Positions 52,917-64,000 of a DNA stretch of 64,000 nt are shown one piece after another. The position numbers and the translations under genes are program-made. This DNA is from Halorientalis persicus (GTDB taxonomy: Archaea; Halobacteriota; Halobacteria; Halobacteriales; Haloarculaceae). A model generated the notes under the pieces. It worked only from the letters and a program-made list of their open reading frames with translations. It was not told where the DNA came from and did not search any database. The DNA lies in NCBI RefSeq assembly GCF_900110215.1, contig NZ_FOCX01000002.1, positions 248,001-312,000 on the forward strand, read 5' to 3'. Positions within the stretch are counted from its first letter, which is position 1. Each line of letters begins with the position of its first letter.

Positions 52917-53846
52917 TCACTCGAAGGGGAACTCCACGTCCTCGGCCTGCCGGAGGTGTTTCAGGTCCGTCACCGTCGAGCGGATCGTCATCCGGGACAC
53001 GTCGGCCAGGTCGGCCGCCCGGGTCTGTGTCACCTCGACGCCGTGGTCGTAGGCCGCCTTGTAGAGGCAGGCGGCCGCGACGCCGCTGGGATTTTTCCCA
53101 CCCATGCGGCCGGTCTCGACGAGCGTGACGGCGTACTCCCGCGCCCGACTCTCCACGTCGGCCTCCAGACCCAGTTCCGAGGCGTACCGGGGCAGGTAGT
53201 CCGTCGGGTCGATGGGACCGATGGGGAGCCCGAGTTCGCGGTTCAATGCGTCGTAGGCGACCTTGAGTTCGCTCCGATCGGCGCGGGCGATGTCCACGAC
53301 CTCGTCCATCGTCCGGGCGATGGAGTTGGTCCGACAGGTCGCGTACACGCCCGCCGCCGCGAACCCTTCGAGCGAGCGGCCACAGAGCAGGTCCTCGGAC
53401 TGGGCCGACTCGAACAGCGAACACGCCTGCTCGCGGATCGTCGTCGGGAGCCCCAGTACCGACACGATCCGCCTGATCTCGGTGAACGCGTACAGCCGGT
53501 TGCGCTCCCGTTTCGGGGAGAGCCGTGCCCGGTTGTGCTGGCGGCGCATCCGAACGAGCTGGCGCTGTCGCCGACCCGAAACCTCCGAACCCGTGCCGTA
53601 GCCGATTTCCGTCGACAGCCCCTTGTCGTGACGGGCCCGCGTCAGCGGCGCGCCCGTCCGGCGCTCGTCGCTCTCCTCGTCACCCGAGCGCCACTCCGGT
53701 CCCCGATCGATCGCGTCCTCGTCGACGACGAGCCCACAATCGTCACAGACTGTTTCCGTCCCCGTGCGTCGTACCGATCCACCACACTCGGTGCAGGAAA
53801 CACCGTCGTTTACACCACCCATTTGTAGTCCACCGAATCGCGACAT
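52917..53846 (-). CDS. tfb: Transcription initiation factor IIB (TFB paralogue)
   Basis: I prefer ATG at 53846 (MSRFGGLQMGGVNDG; 309 residues) because the TATA box at 53868-53875 is centred about 26 bp upstream, the leaderless distance. ATGs at 53852 and 53822 are alternatives. The N-terminal zinc ribbon has CTECGG and CDDCGLVVDED. A B-reader region follows (GPEWRSGDEESDERRTGAPL; LSTEIGYGTG), then two cyclin-like repeats (RNRLYAFTEIRRIVSVLGLP; FAAAGVYATCRTN; and GLEADVESRAREYAVTLVET, GVAAACLYKAAYDHG). It recruits RNA polymerase to TATA/BRE promoters. Haloarchaea have several TFBs with different promoter sets. Confidence 0.94.
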   Translation of the reverse strand: MSRFGGLQMGGVNDGVSCTECGGSVRRTGTETVCDDCGLVVDEDAIDRGPEWRSGDEESDERRTGAPLTRARHDKGLSTEIGYGTGSEVSGRRQRQLVRMRRQHNRARLSPKRERNRLYAFTEIRRIVSVLGLPTTIREQACSLFESAQSEDLLCGRSLEGFAAAGVYATCRTNSIARTMDEVVDIARADRSELKVAYDALNRELGLPIGPIDPTDYLPRYASELGLEADVESRAREYAVTLVETGRMGGKNPSGVAAACLYKAAYDHGVEVTQTRAADLADVSRMTIRSTVTDLKHLRQAEDVEFPFE

Positions 53847-53867
53847 ATCCATAGCGGGAGATTTGAA

Positions 53868-53875: not shown

Positions 53876-54097
53876 GTTACTACTTGTTCCGAGAGTAGAA
53901 TATCAGACTCGATTTAATAAAACGCGTATACCCGGGTGATGTGCGGCAGTTAAGACAGCAGCTATCGGGTCTGAATACAGTAATATGGCCGTCTACGTCC
54001 GGTATTTCGACAGCTCCGGCCACGGGCACCAAACACACATCCAGCCGTTCGTGTCATATTCTGATTATTATCGAGCGGATTCGTCCTGCACACCGAC
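53876..54097. other. A+T-rich spacer between tfb and accessory cassettes
   Basis: This spacer is visibly richer in A and T than the genes to its left. No supported gene, RNA or inverted repeat end is seen. It marks the boundary between the housekeeping block and the duplicated accessory cassettes. Confidence 0.4.
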
Positions 54098-54193
54098 CTA
54101 CCAGGTGTCTACCGACAGGTCCCAGAACGTCGGCCACGGGACGATCGGCAGGCTGGGATAGGCGATCAGATCGTCGTTCTTGACCGCGATCCC
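54098..54193 (-). pseudogene. Remnant of the large DUF7286-like gene (about 30 codons)
   Basis: Translated on the minus strand, 54193 to 54098 reads VKNDDLIAYPSLPIV and then PWPTFWDLSVDTW before TAG. This is plainly related to VRNRDLIAYPGLPII and PWPTFWYLSVDAW in the 1177-residue protein at 60444-64000. Nothing else of that gene survives: the similarity ends just where the promoter box of the adjacent lipoprotein gene begins. It is a deletion scar from a third copy of the duplicated cassette. Confidence 0.8.
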
Positions 54194-54208
54194 CGACGCT
54201 TATTTTAC
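54191..54208 (+). promoter_or_regulatory. Conserved promoter of lipoprotein gene, copy A
   Basis: CCCCGACGCTTATTTTAC is identical over 18 bases to 58055-58072. The TTATTTTA core is centred about 27 bp before the ATG at 54232, as expected for a leaderless transcript. It begins exactly where the pseudogene similarity ends. Confidence 0.6.
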
Positions 54209-54231
54209 GCCGCTCCGGAGCGATAGTTAGC

Positions 54232-55461
54232 ATGACAGACCAGCGACAGTGGAGCCGCCGCCAGTGGCTGGCGACCGCCGGCAGTACCGCCGCAGTCGGC
54301 CTCGCAGGCTGTTCCAGCGACGACGGGAGTACCGACGGCACCGACGACGACGGCAGCACACCCGGCGGGAACAGGGGCAACGGCGACACGTCCAATCCCG
54401 GTGAGACGAATACACAGTCGTTCGAGGGACCAGTCACCGCCGACGGTGAGTGGCCGATGCGATATCTCGATGCCGGTAACACCCGCGCGACCGAGGCAGT
54501 TAGCGGCCCACCGGTGCCCGTGCAGGAGCGGTGGTCGAAAGATGTCGGAGATACCGTCGCACGTCCCGCTGTTAGTGGGAAAACGGTATACATCGCAACC
54601 AAGGAGAATTCTTGCTACGCGTTCGACCTCCTCTCCGGCGATCAGCGATGGGAGCGGTCGATGGGGAACGGGAGAGTGTACGATATCGCTGCCATCGGAG
54701 ATCGCATCTACGTGGCCCAGCAGGGCAGCGTGACGGCGTTGACGAAGGACAACAGCGTCGAGTGGACCTTTGAGGACATTACCTCCCCAGCCGACGTTCT
54801 CGTCTCGGACGGAACAGTCTACACGCGGAGCGGGAAGACGCTGTACGCCCGCGACGCTGCATCGGGTGACGAGCTCTGGACCACGACGGTTGATACCGGA
54901 CAGTCACGACCAGCTGTAGCTGGCGGGTCGGTACTCACCAAGGACCAACAGTATCTCCGAGCGTTCGACGCCGAAACGGGCGACCAACGCTATCAGGTCG
55001 AACACGGCGGCAGCATCGCACTCAACAGCGTTTCCGTCGCCGACGGCACAGCCTACTTCATGGCCGACACCAACATCGAAGCTCGCTCCATCGAGGACGG
55101 CTCTCTTGAGTGGCGGTGGACCGATGGCGCTGCCGAAGAGACCCCGCCAACCGTCGCCGACGGCGTCGTCTACGCTAACCCACATGGCAGAACCGGCCCA
55201 TACCGCATCGACGCCGAAACCGGGGAGAACCTCGGCGCGATCGACATCGACGGGTACACCATGCCCCCAGTCGTCGCCGACGGGACGGTCTTTGTCAGCC
55301 GACCGTGGACCCGAGAGACGAACGCTCGACTGTACGCTATCGACGCGGAGACGAACGCGGTGAAATGGGAGATGCAACCCCCGGACAAGTTGGGCCAGAC
55401 ACCCATCGTCCTCGAAGACCTGTTGGTCTACGGCGTCCCCTCCGTCTTCGAACCGGCCTGA
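54232..55461 (+). CDS. Tat-exported PQQ-like beta-propeller lipoprotein, copy A
   Basis: This 409-residue protein opens with a Tat signal and lipobox (RRQWLATAGSTAAVGLAGC). A Gly/Asp/Thr-rich linker to about residue 65 is followed by a PQQ/BamB-type propeller. Blades show the DG-VY-A-D---G-WT pattern, for example TVYIATKENSCYAFDLLSGD, TVYTRSGKTLYARDAASGDE and DGVVYANPHGRTGPYRIDAE. It is a paralogue of the protein at 58096, with the same promoter and near-identical first 60 residues. The C-terminus (VYGVPSVFEPA) lacks about three residues found in copy B. It should be a lipid-anchored surface protein, with an interaction role in the cassette inferred. Confidence 0.85.
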   Translation: MTDQRQWSRRQWLATAGSTAAVGLAGCSSDDGSTDGTDDDGSTPGGNRGNGDTSNPGETNTQSFEGPVTADGEWPMRYLDAGNTRATEAVSGPPVPVQERWSKDVGDTVARPAVSGKTVYIATKENSCYAFDLLSGDQRWERSMGNGRVYDIAAIGDRIYVAQQGSVTALTKDNSVEWTFEDITSPADVLVSDGTVYTRSGKTLYARDAASGDELWTTTVDTGQSRPAVAGGSVLTKDQQYLRAFDAETGDQRYQVEHGGSIALNSVSVADGTAYFMADTNIEARSIEDGSLEWRWTDGAAEETPPTVADGVVYANPHGRTGPYRIDAETGENLGAIDIDGYTMPPVVADGTVFVSRPWTRETNARLYAIDAETNAVKWEMQPPDKLGQTPIVLEDLLVYGVPSVFEPA

Positions 55462-55503
55462 GCGAGTCCTTCGCCGCAGCCAGTGTCGCGACCCGGCCTC
55501 AGG

Positions 55504-56190
55504 TCATTCGTCGACGTATTGCTGGCCGTACTCCCCACCGAGGATCTGTTCAACAATCTTCCCGGTCTCGGTATCCAACACGAATTCCATCTCTTTTCCA
55601 CGTCTTGGCCGTTGCCAGATGATGAACCGGTCTTCTTCCGGGATGAGCCCCCACCCAGGATCGTCCCTGCGCTCCCACAGTTTCGTCCCGTCCGGCTCGA
55701 ACCCGAACAGGTCCTTTCTCGTCGTCTGAATGAGTATCCTTCCATCGAACCACTCGATCTGGGCAACCTCACCCCGCGGGAAGGAAAACGTCCGATCGCC
55801 GAACTGAAACTCCGTCCCCGGCCAGTCGGACAGAATCTCACCGGTTTCGGGATCAACATTGTGGCAGTGGTTCGTGTCCGACCGGGCGATAATTCGATCG
55901 CCCAAAGTGTCGAGAGTATCGTACCGAGTCGACTCCGATTCACGCGGTGTTTCGATCGTCCAGATGTGGCCGGGCTCCGGACTGATTCCAACGATGTTTC
56001 TGTCCTCCGGAACCACGATGTCGGGGGACGAGACTTTTTCAGGCATCCCGATACGCAGAAGTAACAACCCATCGTCAAACCGCGCAGCACTCACTATTTT
56101 CGGGGCGATTCGTAGGGAAGTAGTGTCACTGCTCAAGATACCATCGTAATCGATGGAAATAGATTTGCCGCCCAATTCGACCGTTTCCAT
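55504..56190 (-). CDS. Small propeller-like protein, copy A
   Basis: This 228-residue protein is mostly beta strand, with ILSDWPGTEFQFGDRTFSFP, DLFGFEPDGTKLWERRDDPG and DTETGKIVEQILGG. It aligns with the N-terminal leader plus the second half of the 345-residue paralogue at 59359 (there DQFEFGGERFSFGS, ELYGFADDGTQLWHRSD and DEMTGKIIEKL). It is thus half-length compared with copy B. There is no signal peptide, so it is probably cytosolic. It lies immediately downstream of the truncated large gene on the same strand and converges with lipoprotein copy A. Function is unknown; an immunity- or chaperone-like role for the upstream product is only a hypothesis. Confidence 0.7.
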   Translation of the reverse strand: METVELGGKSISIDYDGILSSDTTSLRIAPKIVSAARFDDGLLLLRIGMPEKVSSPDIVVPEDRNIVGISPEPGHIWTIETPRESESTRYDTLDTLGDRIIARSDTNHCHNVDPETGEILSDWPGTEFQFGDRTFSFPRGEVAQIEWFDGRILIQTTRKDLFGFEPDGTKLWERRDDPGWGLIPEEDRFIIWQRPRRGKEMEFVLDTETGKIVEQILGGEYGQQYVDE

Positions 56191-56263
56191 ACAGTGGAGT
56201 ATTTATTCCCCCGATAGAATGGTTTTGGTCGACAGTACGAGTGGATGAGCCGTGAAACGTCTG

Positions 56264-57910
56264 TTAACAGGCACTTGAGAGATCATCTCCCTGGCTTGCT
56301 GAACCCATTTGACTGCGTAGATACGACGGGTCATCTGCGAACCGTTCGATCGGTCCCAGGGGTACCATATTCTGCGATTCTTCAAACGGCCATTCGGAAT
56401 GAGTGTGATCGATGAGAATCTGGAATTGTTTCACTCCACCCTCAAGCCTCGGCCGTCCATCTGGGTTCACTCGTTTCACCTGCGCAGGCAGGAGCGGATC
56501 GCGTACCCGAGCGCTGAATCCGCCGACCGTGCTCACAGTCATATCAACGTCGTCTTCCTGTTCTATGAACATTTTTGCAATGCAGTCGTAGTCGCCCCAT
56601 TTGTCATCCGAGTCCGCACTCGGCTTCACGACCCGATCGTCCCAGAGTGCGAACGTATTGATGACATTGTGTTCGTCTTTTCCGGTGAGCGAGTATGTCC
56701 TTGCCAGCCAGTTTCCGCTCGGCGCGTGGGAGCCATCGCTGTCGTAAACGCGAGCGAACGAGTCGGGCTCTTCGGTCGTCAAGTAGATCACGATCCCGGG
56801 CGTTTCGTGGGACGGCACGCCGTCTTCGACCCGGTTGACGTTTTCAGCGAGGCGGAACTCGGTAATGTCGTGTTGCTCGTCCAGCGGCTCACCCGGATCG
56901 TCGACGACGTAGTTGATCGTCTCTCTGACTTCTCCAACCCGGATATCCGTCTGTTTGACCGAACGCTCCCAGCTCCGGTGGACATCGTCGTCGCCGCTTC
57001 CGAGGAACTCCGCGAACTGCGTCCTGTACTCCGGCCGCAACAGCCGACAATACTTCTTCCAGACCGGATCGTCGATGTCGTCGGCACTGCTGTAGCGGTT
57101 CTCCGGCTGGTCGTTGAGCGCGTCGTACAGCGTGTCCTCGTCACAGCTTGGATCCGCAGACACGCCCTCGTACTCGAACCCGTCGTCGTCGATCTCGACG
57201 CCGGCCGCCTGAAATTCCAGGCCACCATCATCCCAGGAGACGCCACTGTTCGACCCGGGTAGCCACTGACTTCCGAACGACCCCGACGACCCCGGCCGCG
57301 CGCAGTTCGGGCCAGTCGAAGCTTTGCTCTGGTCGAAGCCCGGCCCGACGTGCCCCCACGTCTTCGAACACTTCTTTTTGACCACGCCGGTCCCATGGCC
57401 ATGGATCCGATCGCCGACACCCATACTCCCACGGCCTGGCAGGACCGTCCCGCCGGGAACCGGGATCGCAACCAGGGTGTCGCTGTCGAAACTGATCGGC
57501 TCGACCGTCCCGACCCGCCGGTTTCGTCCGGCGATATCGACTGTGACCGGCTGCTGCTGGCGCACGTACGTCGTCGCGCCCGTCGTCGACGGATCACCCT
57601 TGTTCGCGCTTACCGCGAACCGCGCGTACTCCCCTTTCACATGAACGCTCCAGGCGTCCACCGACAGGTACCAGAACGTCGGCCAGGGGATGATCGGCAA
57701 GCCGGGATGAGCCACGAGGTCGTGATTCCGAACCGACATCGACGAGTGAAGCGTGTTCTGCGGGCTGGACACGTTCGCGTATCCGGGGCGAACCTGCGGG
57801 ACTGTCGCCCGAGTTACCGGTCGTGTCGTCAAATACGTCGGTGAGCCGTGCACCGAGTACGTGATGTCCTCGGTCAGCGGTGTCTCCGCGACCGTCCCTC
57901 GGTTGGCCAT
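56264..57910 (-). CDS. C-terminal module of the large DUF7286-like protein, 5'-truncated copy A
   Basis: From ATG 57910 the protein has 548 residues. MANRGTVAETPLTEDITYSV, GLPIIPWPTFWYLSVDAW and KKKCSKTW match the large protein's residues from about 640 onward. Similarity to the large protein continues upstream to 57979 (GIDVLN, QEALSGDTSLS), and the frame then hits a TAG at 58004-58006 with no start codon between. The copy therefore lost its first 600 or more codons, including any export region. Divergence rises towards the C-terminus (shared YCRL, FAEFLGS, YDCI-K). It may be a pseudogene or an orphan C-terminal module; the long intact frame favours expression or recent truncation. Confidence 0.7.
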   Translation of the reverse strand: MANRGTVAETPLTEDITYSVHGSPTYLTTRPVTRATVPQVRPGYANVSSPQNTLHSSMSVRNHDLVAHPGLPIIPWPTFWYLSVDAWSVHVKGEYARFAVSANKGDPSTTGATTYVRQQQPVTVDIAGRNRRVGTVEPISFDSDTLVAIPVPGGTVLPGRGSMGVGDRIHGHGTGVVKKKCSKTWGHVGPGFDQSKASTGPNCARPGSSGSFGSQWLPGSNSGVSWDDGGLEFQAAGVEIDDDGFEYEGVSADPSCDEDTLYDALNDQPENRYSSADDIDDPVWKKYCRLLRPEYRTQFAEFLGSGDDDVHRSWERSVKQTDIRVGEVRETINYVVDDPGEPLDEQHDITEFRLAENVNRVEDGVPSHETPGIVIYLTTEEPDSFARVYDSDGSHAPSGNWLARTYSLTGKDEHNVINTFALWDDRVVKPSADSDDKWGDYDCIAKMFIEQEDDVDMTVSTVGGFSARVRDPLLPAQVKRVNPDGRPRLEGGVKQFQILIDHTHSEWPFEESQNMVPLGPIERFADDPSYLRSQMGSASQGDDLSSAC

Positions 57911-58054
57911 CGACAGTGACGTATCGCCACTGAGCGCTTCCTGTGCAAATCCGAGACCCCCGTTGAGAACGTCGATCCCGCAGGCATCGTAGTCACAGCG
58001 TCGCTATCGATTCGAGTGATCGGCGCCGTTCTGCCATCCATTCGGATCACGCTT

Positions 58055-58072
58055 CCCCGACGCTTATTTTAC
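58055..58072 (+). promoter_or_regulatory. Conserved promoter of lipoprotein gene, copy B
   Basis: CCCCGACGCTTATTTTAC is identical over 18 bases to the copy A promoter at 54191-54208. Its TATA core is centred about 28 bp before ATG 58096. Confidence 0.6.
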
Positions 58073-58095
58073 TCCGCTTCGCACCGAGAGGTAGC

Positions 58096-59331
58096 ATGAC
58101 AAACCAGCGACAGTGGAGCCGCCGCCGATGGCTCGCCGCCGCCGGCAGTACCGCCGCAGTCGGCCTCGCCGGCTGTTCCAGCGACGACGGCACTGGAGGC
58201 ACCGACGACGACGGCAGCACACCCGGCGGGAACAGTGGTAACGGCGACACGTCCAATCCCGACGGCGGAACGAGCGAGCAATCCTTCGAGGGACCGGTCA
58301 CCGCCAATGGTGAATGGACACATCTGGACTACGACGCCGCGAACACCCGCGCCACCACCGCCAGTGGCCCGCCGGTTGCCGTTCAGGAGCGCTGGTCGAA
58401 CACGCTCGATTCGATTGCGAGCGTCCCTCTCGTTAGCGGTGAGACGGTCTATGCCGCCACCGAAGGGGGCAGTTGCTACGCTTTCGATCTGCTGTCCGGT
58501 GAGAAACAGTGGGAACAGAATCTGGGTCCCGAGACGATATTCAGTCTCGCCACGGACGACAGCAGAGTCTACGTCGGCTGGGCAGGCGGAGTGAGTGCGA
58601 TTACGGCCGACAACACCGTCGCCTGGGACAAGTCCCTGGAGGAGTTCATCTTCGATCTCGTTGTCACTGACGGGACAGTGTACGCCAGAGGGCAGGAGCG
58701 ACTGTTCGCTCGCGATGCCGAAACTGGCGACGAACTCTGGACGACAGCCGTCCCGGATGGACTCAGCGATCTGGCAGTCACCAACGACTCCGTGTTGGTG
58801 AAGGACCGTCAGCAGCTCAAGGCCTACGAGACCGGAAGCGGCGACCGACAGTGGACAGTCGAACACGCGGGGATCCAGAACGACGTGGGTGTCTCCGTCG
58901 CCGACGGTACAGCTTACTTCGTGACCGACGGTCGGATCGAGGCCCGCTCGACTGCAGATGGATCGCTGTCGTGGGAGTGGACCGATGGAACGATGATTCG
59001 CACCGTCCCAACAATCGCCGATGGTATGGTCTATGCCGGCGGCCGGGGAGAACCCGGTCCATACCGAATCGACGCCGGGAACGGCCAGACTCTCGACCAG
59101 ATCGACATCGACGGCTACACTGGCCAGCCGGTCGTGGCGGATGGGACAGTCTACTTCAGCGTCCAGCCGGATCTCGACGCCGATCTGAGACTGTACGCCG
59201 TCGACGCAGACTCCTTGGAGACTCGCTGGCAGACGATAGTGCCGGGATACATCGAGAACTTCCCGATGGTGCTCGAAGACCTCGTCGTCTACGGCACCGA
59301 GAGCGCAGTGTACGTGCTCGAACCTGCCTGA
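58096..59331 (+). CDS. Tat-exported PQQ-like beta-propeller lipoprotein, copy B
   Basis: This 411-residue paralogue of the protein at 54232 has Tat signal and lipobox RRRWLAAAGSTAAVGLAGC, a Gly/Asp/Thr linker, then propeller blades such as GGSCYAFDLLSGEKQWEQNL, DGTVYARGQERLFARDAETG and DGMVYAGGRGEPGPYRIDAG, closing with TESAVYVLEPA. PQQ/BamB-type propellers on the cell surface usually act as binding platforms; no PQQ enzyme residues are evident. It converges with the 345-residue propeller-like gene, 27 bp apart. Confidence 0.87.
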   Translation: MTNQRQWSRRRWLAAAGSTAAVGLAGCSSDDGTGGTDDDGSTPGGNSGNGDTSNPDGGTSEQSFEGPVTANGEWTHLDYDAANTRATTASGPPVAVQERWSNTLDSIASVPLVSGETVYAATEGGSCYAFDLLSGEKQWEQNLGPETIFSLATDDSRVYVGWAGGVSAITADNTVAWDKSLEEFIFDLVVTDGTVYARGQERLFARDAETGDELWTTAVPDGLSDLAVTNDSVLVKDRQQLKAYETGSGDRQWTVEHAGIQNDVGVSVADGTAYFVTDGRIEARSTADGSLSWEWTDGTMIRTVPTIADGMVYAGGRGEPGPYRIDAGNGQTLDQIDIDGYTGQPVVADGTVYFSVQPDLDADLRLYAVDADSLETRWQTIVPGYIENFPMVLEDLVVYGTESAVYVLEPA

Positions 59332-59358
59332 CGATCACTCGTCGACGAACTGCCGATC

Positions 59359-60396
59359 CTAGCCCGATCCAGTGAGTTTTTCTATAATTTTACCAGTCAT
59401 CTCGTCGAATCTGAACCGCGTCGGGCGGCCACGGGTCGTCTCATCCCAGAGCCGGATTTCGCCCTCCTTCTTGAGCAGCCGCCAGCGCGTCTCGTCGGAT
59501 CTGTGCCATAGCTGTGTGCCGTCGTCCGCGAAGCCATAGAGCTCGTGGCCCCTGTTCGGCCCGTCCGTCTTCAGGACCGTCACTCCATCGCACCACTTGA
59601 GGCCAATGACCGGAGACCCGAACGAGAAGCGCTCGCCACCGAACTCGAACTGGTCGTGCGGCCAAACCGCACGCTCTTCCCCCGTCTCCGGGTCGAATTC
59701 GTGATAGTGGTCCGTCACCGATCGGATGATAATACGGTCCCCGAGACAGTAGGGCTTCAGCAGCGAGTAGTCGTCTTCAAGGGTCGTAACGCCGCTGGCG
59801 ACCCACCGCAACGCCCCGTCCGGCCCCACTGCGATGGCGTTGTTCGGCGGCGACACCGAGACGTCCGGGTCGTCGGCCCCCTCGGTCCCGGAACCTACCA
59901 CAACGACGAACGTGTCGGTCGAGCCATCCCACATACTAGGCTTCAGCGGGAGGGCGAGCCGCGAGTTGGCGGTTGAGATCGTACTCCCGTCGATCCAGAC
60001 CTCGCGCCAGGTGTACTCGCGCCAAGAGTCGACGAGTTCCCCCGTCGCCGTGTCGATCCGGTGGAACTGGCGGTCGGTCGATTTCGCCGTAAGCTTGCCC
60101 TTCGAGACCGAGAGTATCGAGTAGTAGTCGTCGGTGTCTCCCGTCGGCGGCTCCTCGACGACCCACGAGAGCTGACAGTCGGGACCGAGCGCGACCACGT
60201 TCCGGCAGCGCTGGACTGTCACATCCGGGTCAAGGTCGAGCGTTTCGGTCGGGTCGAGAGCGACGACGAGCAGCCCGTCGAGAATGACCTGACTTTTGAT
60301 CGGCATGGGAAACTGGAATTTGCCGCTTCGGCTGAAGACAGTTCCACCAGACCCCGAAACAGAAACCGTCGAGTTCCCGACCGTGTGCTGAGTCAT
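59359..60396 (-). CDS. Propeller-like protein with internal duplication, copy B
   Basis: This 345-residue protein has two similar halves. Residues about 60-150 (CRNVVALGPDCQLSWVVEEP; FHRIDTATGELVDSW) and about 180-260 (NNAIAVGPDGALRWVASGVT; YHEFDPETGEERAVW) align with each other. The C-terminal half aligns with the whole of the 228-residue copy A protein. No signal peptide or catalytic motif is seen. It is 47 bp downstream of the large DUF7286-like gene on the same strand and probably co-transcribed. Function is unknown. Confidence 0.72.
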   Translation of the reverse strand: MTQHTVGNSTVSVSGSGGTVFSRSGKFQFPMPIKSQVILDGLLVVALDPTETLDLDPDVTVQRCRNVVALGPDCQLSWVVEEPPTGDTDDYYSILSVSKGKLTAKSTDRQFHRIDTATGELVDSWREYTWREVWIDGSTISTANSRLALPLKPSMWDGSTDTFVVVVGSGTEGADDPDVSVSPPNNAIAVGPDGALRWVASGVTTLEDDYSLLKPYCLGDRIIIRSVTDHYHEFDPETGEERAVWPHDQFEFGGERFSFGSPVIGLKWCDGVTVLKTDGPNRGHELYGFADDGTQLWHRSDETRWRLLKKEGEIRLWDETTRGRPTRFRFDEMTGKIIEKLTGSG

Positions 60397-60443
60397 ACTA
60401 GAGTTACTCGGGGAATCGATGTGAAAGTTATCCGGTCGCCCAG

Positions 60444-63400
60444 TCAGGGGGTGGACCGGCAGACATTATCGGTTCCCACGACGTGGTCGTCAGGACCGTC
60501 CACGTCGTCCCAGCGGTCCTCGAGTTTATCGGGATTCTGCCTGAAGTACCCGATCGTGCCGAGTGGAACCCAGTGATCGGGGTCGATATTTTCTTCACTA
60601 CTGCCGTCGTGGTGACTGATCTCGAACTGTATCGTGGATCCCGGCAGGTCCCGCTTGAGCTCTTCTAAGTAGAACCCGCTCGTGTAATCGATGCTAAGAT
60701 CGTATCCACCCTTTGGAACGAACGTCTTTCCGATACAGTCGTAGACTCCCCAGCCCATCTCGTCTTTCGACCCGGACTTGACAGTCCGGTTGTCGATGAG
60801 TGCGAGATCTCCGACGATCTGTTGCCAATCTTTCCCCTCCAGATCGCCCGGCCGGCCGAAGAATTTCCCAGGCATCCATGGACCATCGTATACCCGGGCG
60901 AGAGCCTCCGTATCGTCTGTTTCAACCTCGGTGACGATGCCGCCCCGTTTGTGGGGTGGACGCTCGCCGTCGTCGATGTGTGGTTCGTTAGCTTCCTCGG
61001 CGGTCGTGAACCGCACGATATCGAACCGGTCGACGACCGATCCCGTTCCATCGAAGTCGCCGTCTCCGTCATCGAGGAGGTAATACATCGTCCGTCGCAG
61101 ACTGTTTTCGTCCACTTCGGGGACGACGGTCCGCCAGGAGTCCTGAACAGAATCGTCCGAACTGCCCAGGAACTCGGCGAACTGCGACTTGTAGGTGGGT
61201 TTGTACAGGCGACAGTAGCTCTCCCAGATCTCGTCCGTGATGTCCTCGGCGCTGCTGTATGGATTGTCTGGCTGGGATTCCAGTTCCTCGTAGAGGTCGC
61301 TGGCGTCACAGCCAGCCTCCTCGCCCTCGTATTCGAGGCCTTCGTCGGTCGAGTACTCGAAGCCGGACGCCTCGAACTCGAGCCCGTCACCGTCCCAGGC
61401 GACATCGCCGCCACCGGGTACCAGGTCCGTCGAGAGCGACGTGCTACCGGTATTCCCGCCGTCATCACACTTGTCTGGTCCAGCGGCCCTGTTCGGCCGG
61501 AATCCCGGCCCCGTGTAGTCCCACGTCTTCGAACACTTCTTCCTGACCAGACTGGGTCTGCCAGGAACGTCGACTCGGTCACCGACACCCATGTTGCCTT
61601 TCCCGGGCATGACCGTCCCACCGGGTACCGGAATGATCACCAGCGTGTCGCTGTCGAAGGTGATCGGATCGACCGTCCCAGCACGGCGGCCACGTCCCGC
61701 GATCCCGATCGTCACCGGTTGCGCCTGGCGGACGTAGGTCGTCCCACCGGTCGTCGACGGATCCCCGCGGTTCGCGCTTACCGCAAAGCGGGCATACTCG
61801 CCCTGGACGTTGACCTGCCAGGCGTCCACCGATAGGTACCAGAACGTCGGCCACGGGATGATCGGCAGCCCGGGATACGCGATCAGATCGCGGTTCCGGA
61901 CCGCCATCGACGCATGCATCGTGTCCATCGGCTCGGTCACGTTGGCGTATTCGGGACGTATCGCCGGTACCGTCGCCCGAGTCAACGGCGATTTCGTCAG
62001 ATACGTCGGTGACCCGTGGACGGAGTAGGTGATGTCTTCGGTCAGCGGCGTCTCCGCGACGGTTCCCCGGTTGGCCATCGACAACGACGTGTCACCACTC
62101 ATCGCCTCCTGTGCGAATCCGAGACCCTTGTTGAGAACGTCGATTCCGCCGGAGAGCCCGTCCATCGCACCGCCGAGTGCGTCGGTGATCTTGTTGTCGG
62201 CCTTGTCGCGGGCCTCGTTCCGGGTGCTGTTGATCTCGTCGATCCAGTGGTAGAGCCGCTGAATGTAGATCCGCCGAGCCTCGATTTTCGCCTTCCGCCG
62301 TGCACTGCTGTAATCGTTCGTCGGCGTTCGGTCGTGATGGACCAGCGCCCGCTGGTCGACGTTGTTCTTGAGTTCCTCGAACGGGCCCTTCCCCGTCGCC
62401 ATGCCGAGCCGTGAGAAACTCGCGTTGCTGACTTCCGATTTGACGACGCCCCGGAAGTCCTCTATGTCGCTCTCGATCGATCCTTCGAGCCCGCCGGGCG
62501 CACTGAGGTCGTGTGTCTTCTGTGAGCCGTCCAAACTGACCGCATCGACGACTTCGTCTTCGACCTCCGATGCCGATGTACTCGATCCGAGATCAGTCCC
62601 CGACGCTCCGTTCACGTCACCTTCGATCGAACCCTCTCCGTCGTCAGCGATGTGGGCCGAGACCGCCTTGTCCAGCGCGGCTTTGAAGTTGCTGTCAGAG
62701 CCGTAATCGCTGTCGACGCCGTTGCGGAGGACGCCGGTTCCCGTGCTGTGTTTCCCGTCGATCTCGACGTCGAAGCTGACCGATCCCGAGGACGTGTCGG
62801 ATCCAGACCCGGAGAACGGCGCATTGCTGTCGTTTTTCTCGTCGTGAGAGCTACAGGAGAAGTCGACCGATGTCTCGACCGTCACGTCGGCGTCGACGTC
62901 GAACCGAACGACCGGCTTCCGACTGCCGTCGGCGTCGGAGTTCCAGACGTCGTTTCGCGAGGCACTGACGCTGTCGACGCTGTCGATCGAGTAGTCGGTA
63001 CTGTCGGCGCTACAGCCGCTGAGGTCGTCGTCGTCCGGACTGCTCACGCTCGGAATGGAGATGCTCGAACTCTCGTCGGTCGTCTCCGCCCAAGATTTGA
63101 CCTCGTATGTGCGGTCGATCGCGGTCTCGATACGGCCGTCACCCATGTCCTCGGGCAACTCCTCTTCGATATCTGGCATCTTGTCTTTGCCCTGAACCTC
63201 GTCGATGATGTCGGGTTTAGCCAGCCAATTGTCACCGCTCATCCCGCCGCCGGTCATGTCCTCGTAGGCCGCTTCCGCGAAACGGTCGATGGCGATGTCG
63301 TGTTCGGAGGAAACACCCGTCGACGGGCCGAAGAGGGCGTTGATACGACGGTCGACGAAATCGCCCGGCGTCGGAATCTTGGGGAGGTTTCCGTTTGCGT

Positions 63401-64000
63401 CACCGAAGAGTGCCTTGGCACCCGAACAGAAGGTGCTGGCAGAGAGTGGACCCGAAATGCCGGAGACGTTACTCGAAATCTTGTCGGATGCTCGTCCGCT
63501 ACTCAGGTCTTGGACGACCTTCGCACCCATACAGGCCCACTCGCCTTTCATCGTCCGGGCGGCGTAGGGGTCAGTGGCATCGAAAGTCTGCTTCTGGATT
63601 CCGAATATTGCGTCGTTAGCCAGCACTTCCGAGTGTTTGTTCTTGTTTATCCGCTCGAAGATGTCTTCGGTTCCGGGAGGGACATCACCGAACACCCGCT
63701 CGTAGTACGCCTTCGCGTAGGCCATCGGATACAGGCGTGCAGCAAATTTCCTCCCGAACCCGTCCATCAGGCTATTGGCCTCGAAGAAGCCCCGGTTGAG
63801 CCGGTTCTCGTACTCCGTGACCTTCTCGTCAAGCGCGAAGGCCGTCGAACTCACTGTCACGGAGACCGTCCGGGTGTCGCTGGCGACCTGCGAGCCGTTG
63901 TCGCGAACCGTCACATCGATCCCGCTGATCTCCGCGGTGACCTTCCCGGCGTCGAGCGACCCGGACTCGTGGCCCACGGTCAGGTCGACCCGGTCGATGG
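60444..64000 (-). CDS. Very large DUF7286-like protein (5' end off window)
   Basis: The frame is open to the right edge (codons above 63977 read DRVDLTV), so the N-terminus is missing; about 1185 residues are visible. A GTG at 63977 is possible but unlikely to be the start. The visible N-terminal part has beta-rich SGIDVTVRDNGSQVASDTRT, then helices (FFEANSLMDGFGRKFAARLY). A long Ser/Asp-rich middle follows (about 280-500), then a helical stretch RRKAKIEARRIYIQRLYHWI. The C-terminal module (from about 640) has PWPTFWYLSVDAW, KKCSKTW and VYDCIGKTF. I recall large haloarchaeal proteins called DUF7286, often near type IV pilus/secretion genes, but cannot confirm it here. It is probably a secreted or envelope protein. 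Confidence 0.75.
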   Translation of the reverse strand, partial: IDRVDLTVGHESGSLDAGKVTAEISGIDVTVRDNGSQVASDTRTVSVTVSSTAFALDEKVTEYENRLNRGFFEANSLMDGFGRKFAARLYPMAYAKAYYERVFGDVPPGTEDIFERINKNKHSEVLANDAIFGIQKQTFDATDPYAARTMKGEWACMGAKVVQDLSSGRASDKISSNVSGISGPLSASTFCSGAKALFGDANGNLPKIPTPGDFVDRRINALFGPSTGVSSEHDIAIDRFAEAAYEDMTGGGMSGDNWLAKPDIIDEVQGKDKMPDIEEELPEDMGDGRIETAIDRTYEVKSWAETTDESSSISIPSVSSPDDDDLSGCSADSTDYSIDSVDSVSASRNDVWNSDADGSRKPVVRFDVDADVTVETSVDFSCSSHDEKNDSNAPFSGSGSDTSSGSVSFDVEIDGKHSTGTGVLRNGVDSDYGSDSNFKAALDKAVSAHIADDGEGSIEGDVNGASGTDLGSSTSASEVEDEVVDAVSLDGSQKTHDLSAPGGLEGSIESDIEDFRGVVKSEVSNASFSRLGMATGKGPFEELKNNVDQRALVHHDRTPTNDYSSARRKAKIEARRIYIQRLYHWIDEINSTRNEARDKADNKITDALGGAMDGLSGGIDVLNKGLGFAQEAMSGDTSLSMANRGTVAETPLTEDITYSVHGSPTYLTKSPLTRATVPAIRPEYANVTEPMDTMHASMAVRNRDLIAYPGLPIIPWPTFWYLSVDAWQVNVQGEYARFAVSANRGDPSTTGGTTYVRQAQPVTIGIAGRGRRAGTVDPITFDSDTLVIIPVPGGTVMPGKGNMGVGDRVDVPGRPSLVRKKCSKTWDYTGPGFRPNRAAGPDKCDDGGNTGSTSLSTDLVPGGGDVAWDGDGLEFEASGFEYSTDEGLEYEGEEAGCDASDLYEELESQPDNPYSSAEDITDEIWESYCRLYKPTYKSQFAEFLGSSDDSVQDSWRTVVPEVDENSLRRTMYYLLDDGDGDFDGTGSVVDRFDIVRFTTAEEANEPHIDDGERPPHKRGGIVTEVETDDTEALARVYDGPWMPGKFFGRPGDLEGKDWQQIVGDLALIDNRTVKSGSKDEMGWGVYDCIGKTFVPKGGYDLSIDYTSGFYLEELKRDLPGSTIQFEISHHDGSSEENIDPDHWVPLGTIGYFRQNPDKLEDRWDDVDGPDDHVVGTDNVCRSTP

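Follow-up and report, generated by a model that had tools for sequence, protein, structure and literature searches.

A putative polymorphic toxin-immunity system with silent cassettes at a type IV pilus-like locus of Halorientalis persicus

Why would a haloarchaeon hold the end of a giant protein in duplicate, each copy with its own small gene behind it? The window analysed here, a stretch of 64,000 nucleotides from Halorientalis persicus (contig C51:248001-312000 of a 4.87 Mb assembly in 121 contigs; genome G000), carries twice a unit made of a twin-arginine translocation (Tat) lipoprotein with a PQQ propeller on the plus strand, followed on the minus strand by a small gene and a giant gene or the C-terminus of one. 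The initial annotation had described this unit, with a propeller-like small product, and likened it to polymorphic toxin/immunity loci, proposing a partner-switching surface system. The coordinates of both copies were confirmed, and the two checks the annotation had named, on the DNA to the right of the window and on co-variation between C-terminal (CT) and partner types, came out in favour of its proposal. We put at roughly two in three the probability that this is a polymorphic toxin-immunity system built on a type IV pilus-like (Tad-like) machine of haloarchaea and backed by silent cassettes for replacement. The genes at the centre of this reading are as follows.

60444..64000 in the window, ATG at about 64439 in the right flank, minus strand: giant B, a DUF7286 protein of 1331 amino acids (aa) (Pfam DUF7286, E=1.6e-126)
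60444..61559, minus strand: C-terminal module B (CT B), putative TNT-like NAD(P) glycohydrolase (NADase) toxin domain (CT profile, E=8e-149)
59359..60396, minus strand: partner B, 345 aa, putative immunity protein for CT B, with an extra N-terminal blade
56264..57910, minus strand: orphan cassette A, 548 aa, DUF7286 core and TNT-like CT, predicted silent
55504..56190, minus strand: partner A, 228 aa, propeller-blade protein predicted to be cytoplasmic, putative immunity protein for CT A

Giant B is full length, as had been proposed; its complete open reading frame (ORF; L011:8444-12439) runs from an N-terminal transmembrane (TM) helix through the core to the TNT-like CT. Orphan A matched both Pfam DUF7286 (positions 896-989, E=2e-31) and the CT profile (E=5e-160). 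It corresponds to the end of a giant, as annotated, with 548 codons counted from the ATG and 579 over the whole open frame rather than about 570, and its start ATG aligns with the internal Met788 of giant B. The predicted fall in similarity towards the C-terminus was reproduced, identity in 40-aa blocks being 62-88% in the core and 28-62% in the CT. Partner B starts 47 nt downstream of giant B, matched the partner profile (E=2.7e-102) with an additional N-terminal repeat (E=7.4e-18), and shares 35% identity with partner A.

The locus is not peculiar to one strain. The congener G058 has this locus too, with another CT/partner pair. In blocks of 60 residues, the two giants are 82-98% identical as far as residue 960 and 37-52% identical thereafter (overall, about 91% up to residue 960 and about 43% beyond), while the flanking pilus genes are 86-94% identical. 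The CT of G058 shares 51% identity with CT A and 42% with CT B, and its partner 48% with partner A and 34% with partner B, although its backbone matches giant B. As both the CT and the partner of G058 are closest to cassette A, and not to the orthologue B, CT and partner travel together, against the backbone. A conserved carrier whose CT is replaced between close relatives, with a CT of metallo-beta-lactamase (MBL) type on one orphan (described below), is the carrier arrangement of polymorphic toxin systems.

We further investigated the occurrence of CT and partner across 392 haloarchaeal genomes. The CT profile was found at 17 places in 15/392 genomes. Outside DUF7286, the CT forms the end of unrelated secreted VWA/TSP3 giants and of shorter carriers (including the short proteins L073 and L087), such that one CT module occurs on carriers with different trafficking. 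A partner-family gene lay directly downstream on the same strand at 14/17 CT places (an unbiased set), with a gap of -101 to +124 nt and often a 4-nt overlap, against a chance expectation of about 0.0001 pairs. One of the remaining three had a partner nearby but not directly downstream, one had no partner, and one, carrier L093 4014-12014, had its partner tail to tail. The divergence of CT and partner was correlated (Mantel test on ranks: r=0.45 and P=1e-4 over 17 pairs, r=0.31 and P=0.017 over the 12 pairs outside DUF7286), a correlation that comes partly from shared ancestry of the pairs, some of which were located via the partner. The downstream cognate partner therefore co-varies with the CT, as the annotation had anticipated, and in three other genomes (G266, G053 and G106) the gene behind MBL-type CTs belongs to a different partner family, the C-terminal part of which is a related blade. 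Partner-family genes also occurred in tandem or alone, like orphan immunity genes. At L071 7474-9050, four tandem partner-family genes were found with no toxin detected, perhaps an orphan immunity array. A plasmid search with CT B gave no match.

What might the CT do? Searches of Pfam and NCBIfam assigned neither the CT nor the partner to a family. Across 16 aligned CTs the sole invariant residues were one Arg (F-x-R-V-Y) and one Gln (G-G-x-T-Q-F/Y), which in the window lie at:

56750..56752, minus strand: Arg387 of CT A, FARVY motif, invariant across 16 CT sequences
56426..56428, minus strand: Gln495 of CT A, GGVKQF motif, invariant across 16 CT sequences
60894..60896, minus strand: Arg1182 of CT B, invariant
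60627..60629, minus strand: Gln1271 of CT B, invariant

TNT-like NADases (PF14021; Tne/Rhs1CT) likewise have an invariant Arg and Gln, with an aromatic residue 8-16 positions past the Arg: R757/Y765/Q822 in TNT, R129/F137/Q194 in AfNADase and R1401/F1417/Q1467 in Serratia Rhs1CT (PMC10539506). The Arg-to-Gln spacing is 65-66 in these known enzymes versus 67-71 in the short haloarchaeal CTs. In the CTs of the window, which in contrast to TNT-like enzymes fall below the Pfam TNT cut-off and have a partner family unmatched in Pfam, it is 89-108. From these motifs a TNT-like NADase is the leading candidate for the CT, with odds that we consider somewhat better than even. In the alternative CT, an HNHGDH metal site is retained in the MBL domain, whose best NCBIfam match is ComEC, far below cut-off.

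The partner would be a cytoplasmic immunity protein. No TM segment was found in partner A by hydropathy scan, and its AlphaFold2 (AF2) model (predicted local distance difference test, pLDDT, 72) is all-beta and propeller-like, with BamB propellers and designed propellers as best Foldseek matches. Such a predicted location would suit a toxin whose substrate, such as NAD, is found in the cytoplasm.

The DNA to the right of the window contained the N-terminus of giant B and candidate secretion genes. Upstream of the giant lie, in order, DUF7284, a lipoprotein, a 236-aa ORFan on the opposite strand, the MBL orphan cassette, DUF7285 and DUF7283, and, further upstream, a TadC-like protein (assigned by position and resemblance; no Pfam match), a T2SSE ATPase with a cysteine-rich N-terminus (E=7.7e-21), DUF7311, DUF7310 (coiled coil) and a HerA-like ATPase. 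With its secretion ATPase, TadC-like protein and TM-anchored pilin-like proteins, this gene set is by predicted content an archaeal type IV pilus-like locus. The giant has a single N-terminal TM helix (residues 15-33, hydropathy scan) and DUF7283, DUF7284 and DUF7285 have one each, which suggests that the giant is inserted into the machine like a pilin.

The DUF7286 core itself is common, being present in 299/392 haloarchaeal genomes, and the present genome has a second, canonical DUF7283-7286 locus (L022 196-8744, C51:138-147k) whose DUF7286 lacks the extension. In most of about 45 loci opened, which were picked by similarity or frame length and do not give a frequency of extension, DUF7286 stopped no more than about 60 residues past the core, often with a C-x-x-x-W...GP...C end. 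Extensions of 370-480 residues were found only in this genome, G058 of the same genus, G161, G266, G301 (one contig) and Halosimplex aquaticum, and 20 further loci, mostly picked for long or short open frames, added none. Within the genus, the extended locus occurred in only 2/8 genomes. In G000, G058 and G266 the CT is fused to DUF7286 within the ATPase/TadC/DUF7283/7285/7284 gene set. The DUF7286 protein of G301 (L028 3769-8013) has a 475-residue extension of neither TNT-like nor MBL type, and no same-strand partner lies directly downstream of it.

Besides orphan A, the neighbourhood holds a further orphan 1.5 kb to the right of the window, which the initial annotation did not reach, and the remnant of a third copy. 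That remnant had been reported as a 30-codon scar; it is present, with 43 codons and two stops. Together with the lipoproteins, these features are:

L011:15965-17659, 1.5 kb right of the window: third orphan cassette, core and MBL domain, with its own lipoprotein
54068..54196, minus strand: DUF7286 core relic, third copy, 43 codons with two stops, translation SGIAVKNDDLIAYPSLPIVPWPTFWDLSVDTW*VGVQDESAR*
54232..55461, plus strand: lipoprotein A, Tat-type, PQQ/BamB-like propeller (Pfam PQQ_2, E=7e-31)
58096..59331, plus strand: lipoprotein B, same family, 58.5% aa identity to lipoprotein A

The relic aligns with residues 696-738 of the giant (P0006 numbering) at 67% identity (E=1.6e-13), and orphan A, the MBL orphan and the relic all share carrier sequence. 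Since orphan A starts at the equivalent of Met788 and neither it nor the MBL orphan has an N-terminal TM helix, the orphans are predicted not to be exportable in the manner of the giant. At the DNA level, the core of giant B and that of orphan A are 80% identical over 498 aligned bases, and this shared core offers a possible crossover track for recombination. Third-position G+C was 0.66-0.80 in the variable parts and 0.85-0.90 in the pilus genes, in line with separate acquisition of the former, a reading weakened by the value of 0.80 in the giant's own N-terminal part. A promoter scan returned chance-level counts, its model being bacterial and not meaningful for archaea. The 236-aa ORFan (p236, L011 15159-15869) was considered as an immunity gene for the MBL orphan and rejected, being on the opposite strand and having no supporting homologues. 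The lipoprotein was likewise rejected as an immunity factor, because its relatives also follow DUF7286 genes without CT extension; its place in the repeated unit stands, though it is probably an accessory of the pilus locus in general, outside the toxin/immunity pair. In G077 (L032 11933-12223), a locus without toxin holds a DUF7286 core remnant of 96 aa followed by a lipoprotein, which indicates that the 3' end is also duplicated where there is no CT extension.

Taken as a mechanism, the giant DUF7286 protein would be held by its one N-terminal helix like a (pseudo)pilin, with the core and variable CT exported outside the cell. The present CT, most likely a TNT-like NAD(P) glycohydrolase, would kill or halt a neighbouring cell upon reaching its cytoplasm, and the small gene directly downstream would supply a cytoplasmic propeller-blade immunity protein. 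The downstream orphans (core, other CT, partner and lipoprotein), lacking an anchor, would be kept silent in reserve; recombination over the roughly 170 residues of common core could then install another toxin with its immunity gene. The fullest form of this proposal, in which neighbouring cells receive exchangeable DUF7286-fused toxins (TNT-like NADase, MBL-fold enzyme) from an archaeal type IV pilus-like machine served by a recombination-ready toxin/immunity bank, we advance tentatively, at somewhat less than an even chance.

Several observations weigh against a pilus-borne toxin system. The Arg-to-Gln spacing of 89-110 in DUF7286-borne CTs reflects long insertions; no hit to Pfam TNT (PF14021) exceeded the cut-off in 30 genomes, and L089 gave 12.7 bits at best against a cut-off of 27; a PDB sequence search with the CT profile matched no solved structure; and the AF2 model of CT A, from three alignment rows, reached a pLDDT of only 30.5. 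Three sub-threshold TNT scores do sit at the C-terminal end of CT carriers (L066, L065 and L089), and with these and the failed model the NADase is a hypothesis rather than a family assignment. One CT carrier (L085 3602-9277) adjoins a glutaredoxin-like gene and has no partner. Apart from the blade repeat of partner B, this genome has no member of the MBL-CT partner family, so the MBL orphan may be unprotected and silent. The literature searched does not establish for archaea that a pilus can deliver a toxin into a recipient, and toxicity and export are both putative, read from sequence.

Could the pair be a true toxin and immunity protein exported by another route, such as Sec/Tat secretion or vesicles, with the pilus-like locus a mere neighbour or scaffold? 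The secreted VWA/TSP3 giants bear the same CT away from any pilus-like locus, and the pilus ATPase does not neighbour the giant in G161 or Halosimplex, which also counts against delivery by the pilus. Set against this are the fusion of the CT to DUF7286 inside the pilus gene set of three genomes and the single N-terminal helix that DUF7286 has in common with its neighbours, and we regard another route as doubtful. It is less likely still that the CT is a variable pilus-tip adhesin or self-recognition domain and no toxin, with the small gene a chaperone or assembly factor and the orphans a source of antigenic or specificity variation. The carrier is encoded in a pilus locus and predicted to lie at the surface, Myxococcus Tad pili have interchangeable tip proteins that expose variable domains in the passages available (PMC12075869), and the propeller of the partner is a common binding fold. 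However, an adhesin does not account well for the identical CT/partner pairing on unrelated carriers, including the short ones, or for the tandem extra partner copies without detected toxin, as orphan immunity genes would be; the invariant Arg and Gln amid little other conservation, and the HxHxDH metal site of the MBL alternative, better fit enzymes. Plain tandem duplication and decay, in which the giant's 3' end was copied together with the small gene and the lipoprotein and all are drifting with no switching function, would explain the decayed relic and the remnant in G077. We consider it very improbable, as orphan A retains an open frame of 548 codons, the Arg/Gln motif and a partner that has its own start, and the third orphan has a non-homologous CT. 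Moreover, CT A is nearer to the full-length CT of the congener than to CT B, and is hence more than a drifting copy of B.

In contact-dependent inhibition (CDI; CdiA-CT/CdiI) and Rhs loci, a full gene is followed by orphan CT/partner cassettes with a homologous upstream region for recombination. Unlike these, the giant matched only DUF7286 in Pfam, with neither a TPS domain nor Rhs repeats found, and belongs to an archaeal envelope. Polymorphic toxin systems (Zhang et al. 2012, PMC3482391) share with the present locus a long conserved carrier, a variable C-terminal domain, a partner directly downstream and orphan C-terminal cassettes with the pre-toxin region. In contrast to them, the carrier here stands in an archaeal type IV pilus-like locus and the partner is a propeller-blade protein; the portions of that article available as text mention neither type IV pilus nor TadE. 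The nearest functional parallel with experiments, in the passages available, is the Kil system of Myxococcus, a Tad pilus whose tips are interchangeable (PMC12075869), alike in its Tad-type pilus, large variable tip proteins and contact-dependent killing. It differs in being bacterial and in having minor-pilin complexes as tips, most of which need a partner resembling a type III secretion system, and no toxin-immunity cassettes are described in those passages. Type IV pili of Halobacteria subclade 4F (PMC4858521) also have a secretion ATPase with a cysteine-rich N-terminus, TadC, an intracellular coiled-coil protein and, in some loci, an FtsZ-family neighbour, a likeness of gene content and not of tree position; the word toxin is absent from the main text of that paper. 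Haloarchaeal toxin-immunity pairs of contractile injection systems resembling type VI secretion (PMC11566945) have a toxin with a downstream immunity gene but a different delivery apparatus.

A pilus-borne polymorphic toxin system with a cassette bank was not described in the literature searched, which did not include the survey of archaeal polymorphic toxins by Makarova et al. 2019, where haloarchaeal carriers, notably parts of the VWA-giant family, may have been noticed earlier. No mention of DUF7283, DUF7284 or DUF7286 was found in the same literature. If the proposal is true, archaeal type IV pilus-like machines would have a role as weapons, with toxins used against other cells, and a function would be gained for DUF7286, a family in about three quarters of sampled haloarchaeal genomes. 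Haloarchaea are known for cell fusion and gene exchange. The system, if confirmed, would supply a testable toxin/immunity pair and a possible mechanism of kin discrimination in this group, and congeners with a common backbone and differing toxins make direct competition comparisons feasible.

Two further features were observed in this genome. A degraded DUF7286 fragment with a stop codon lies on another contig (G000:C30:11850-12916, L023), and a TFB-type transcription factor gene (window 52917-53852) adjoins the cassettes, a similar TFB gene being found beside the congener locus (L024 14390-15319).

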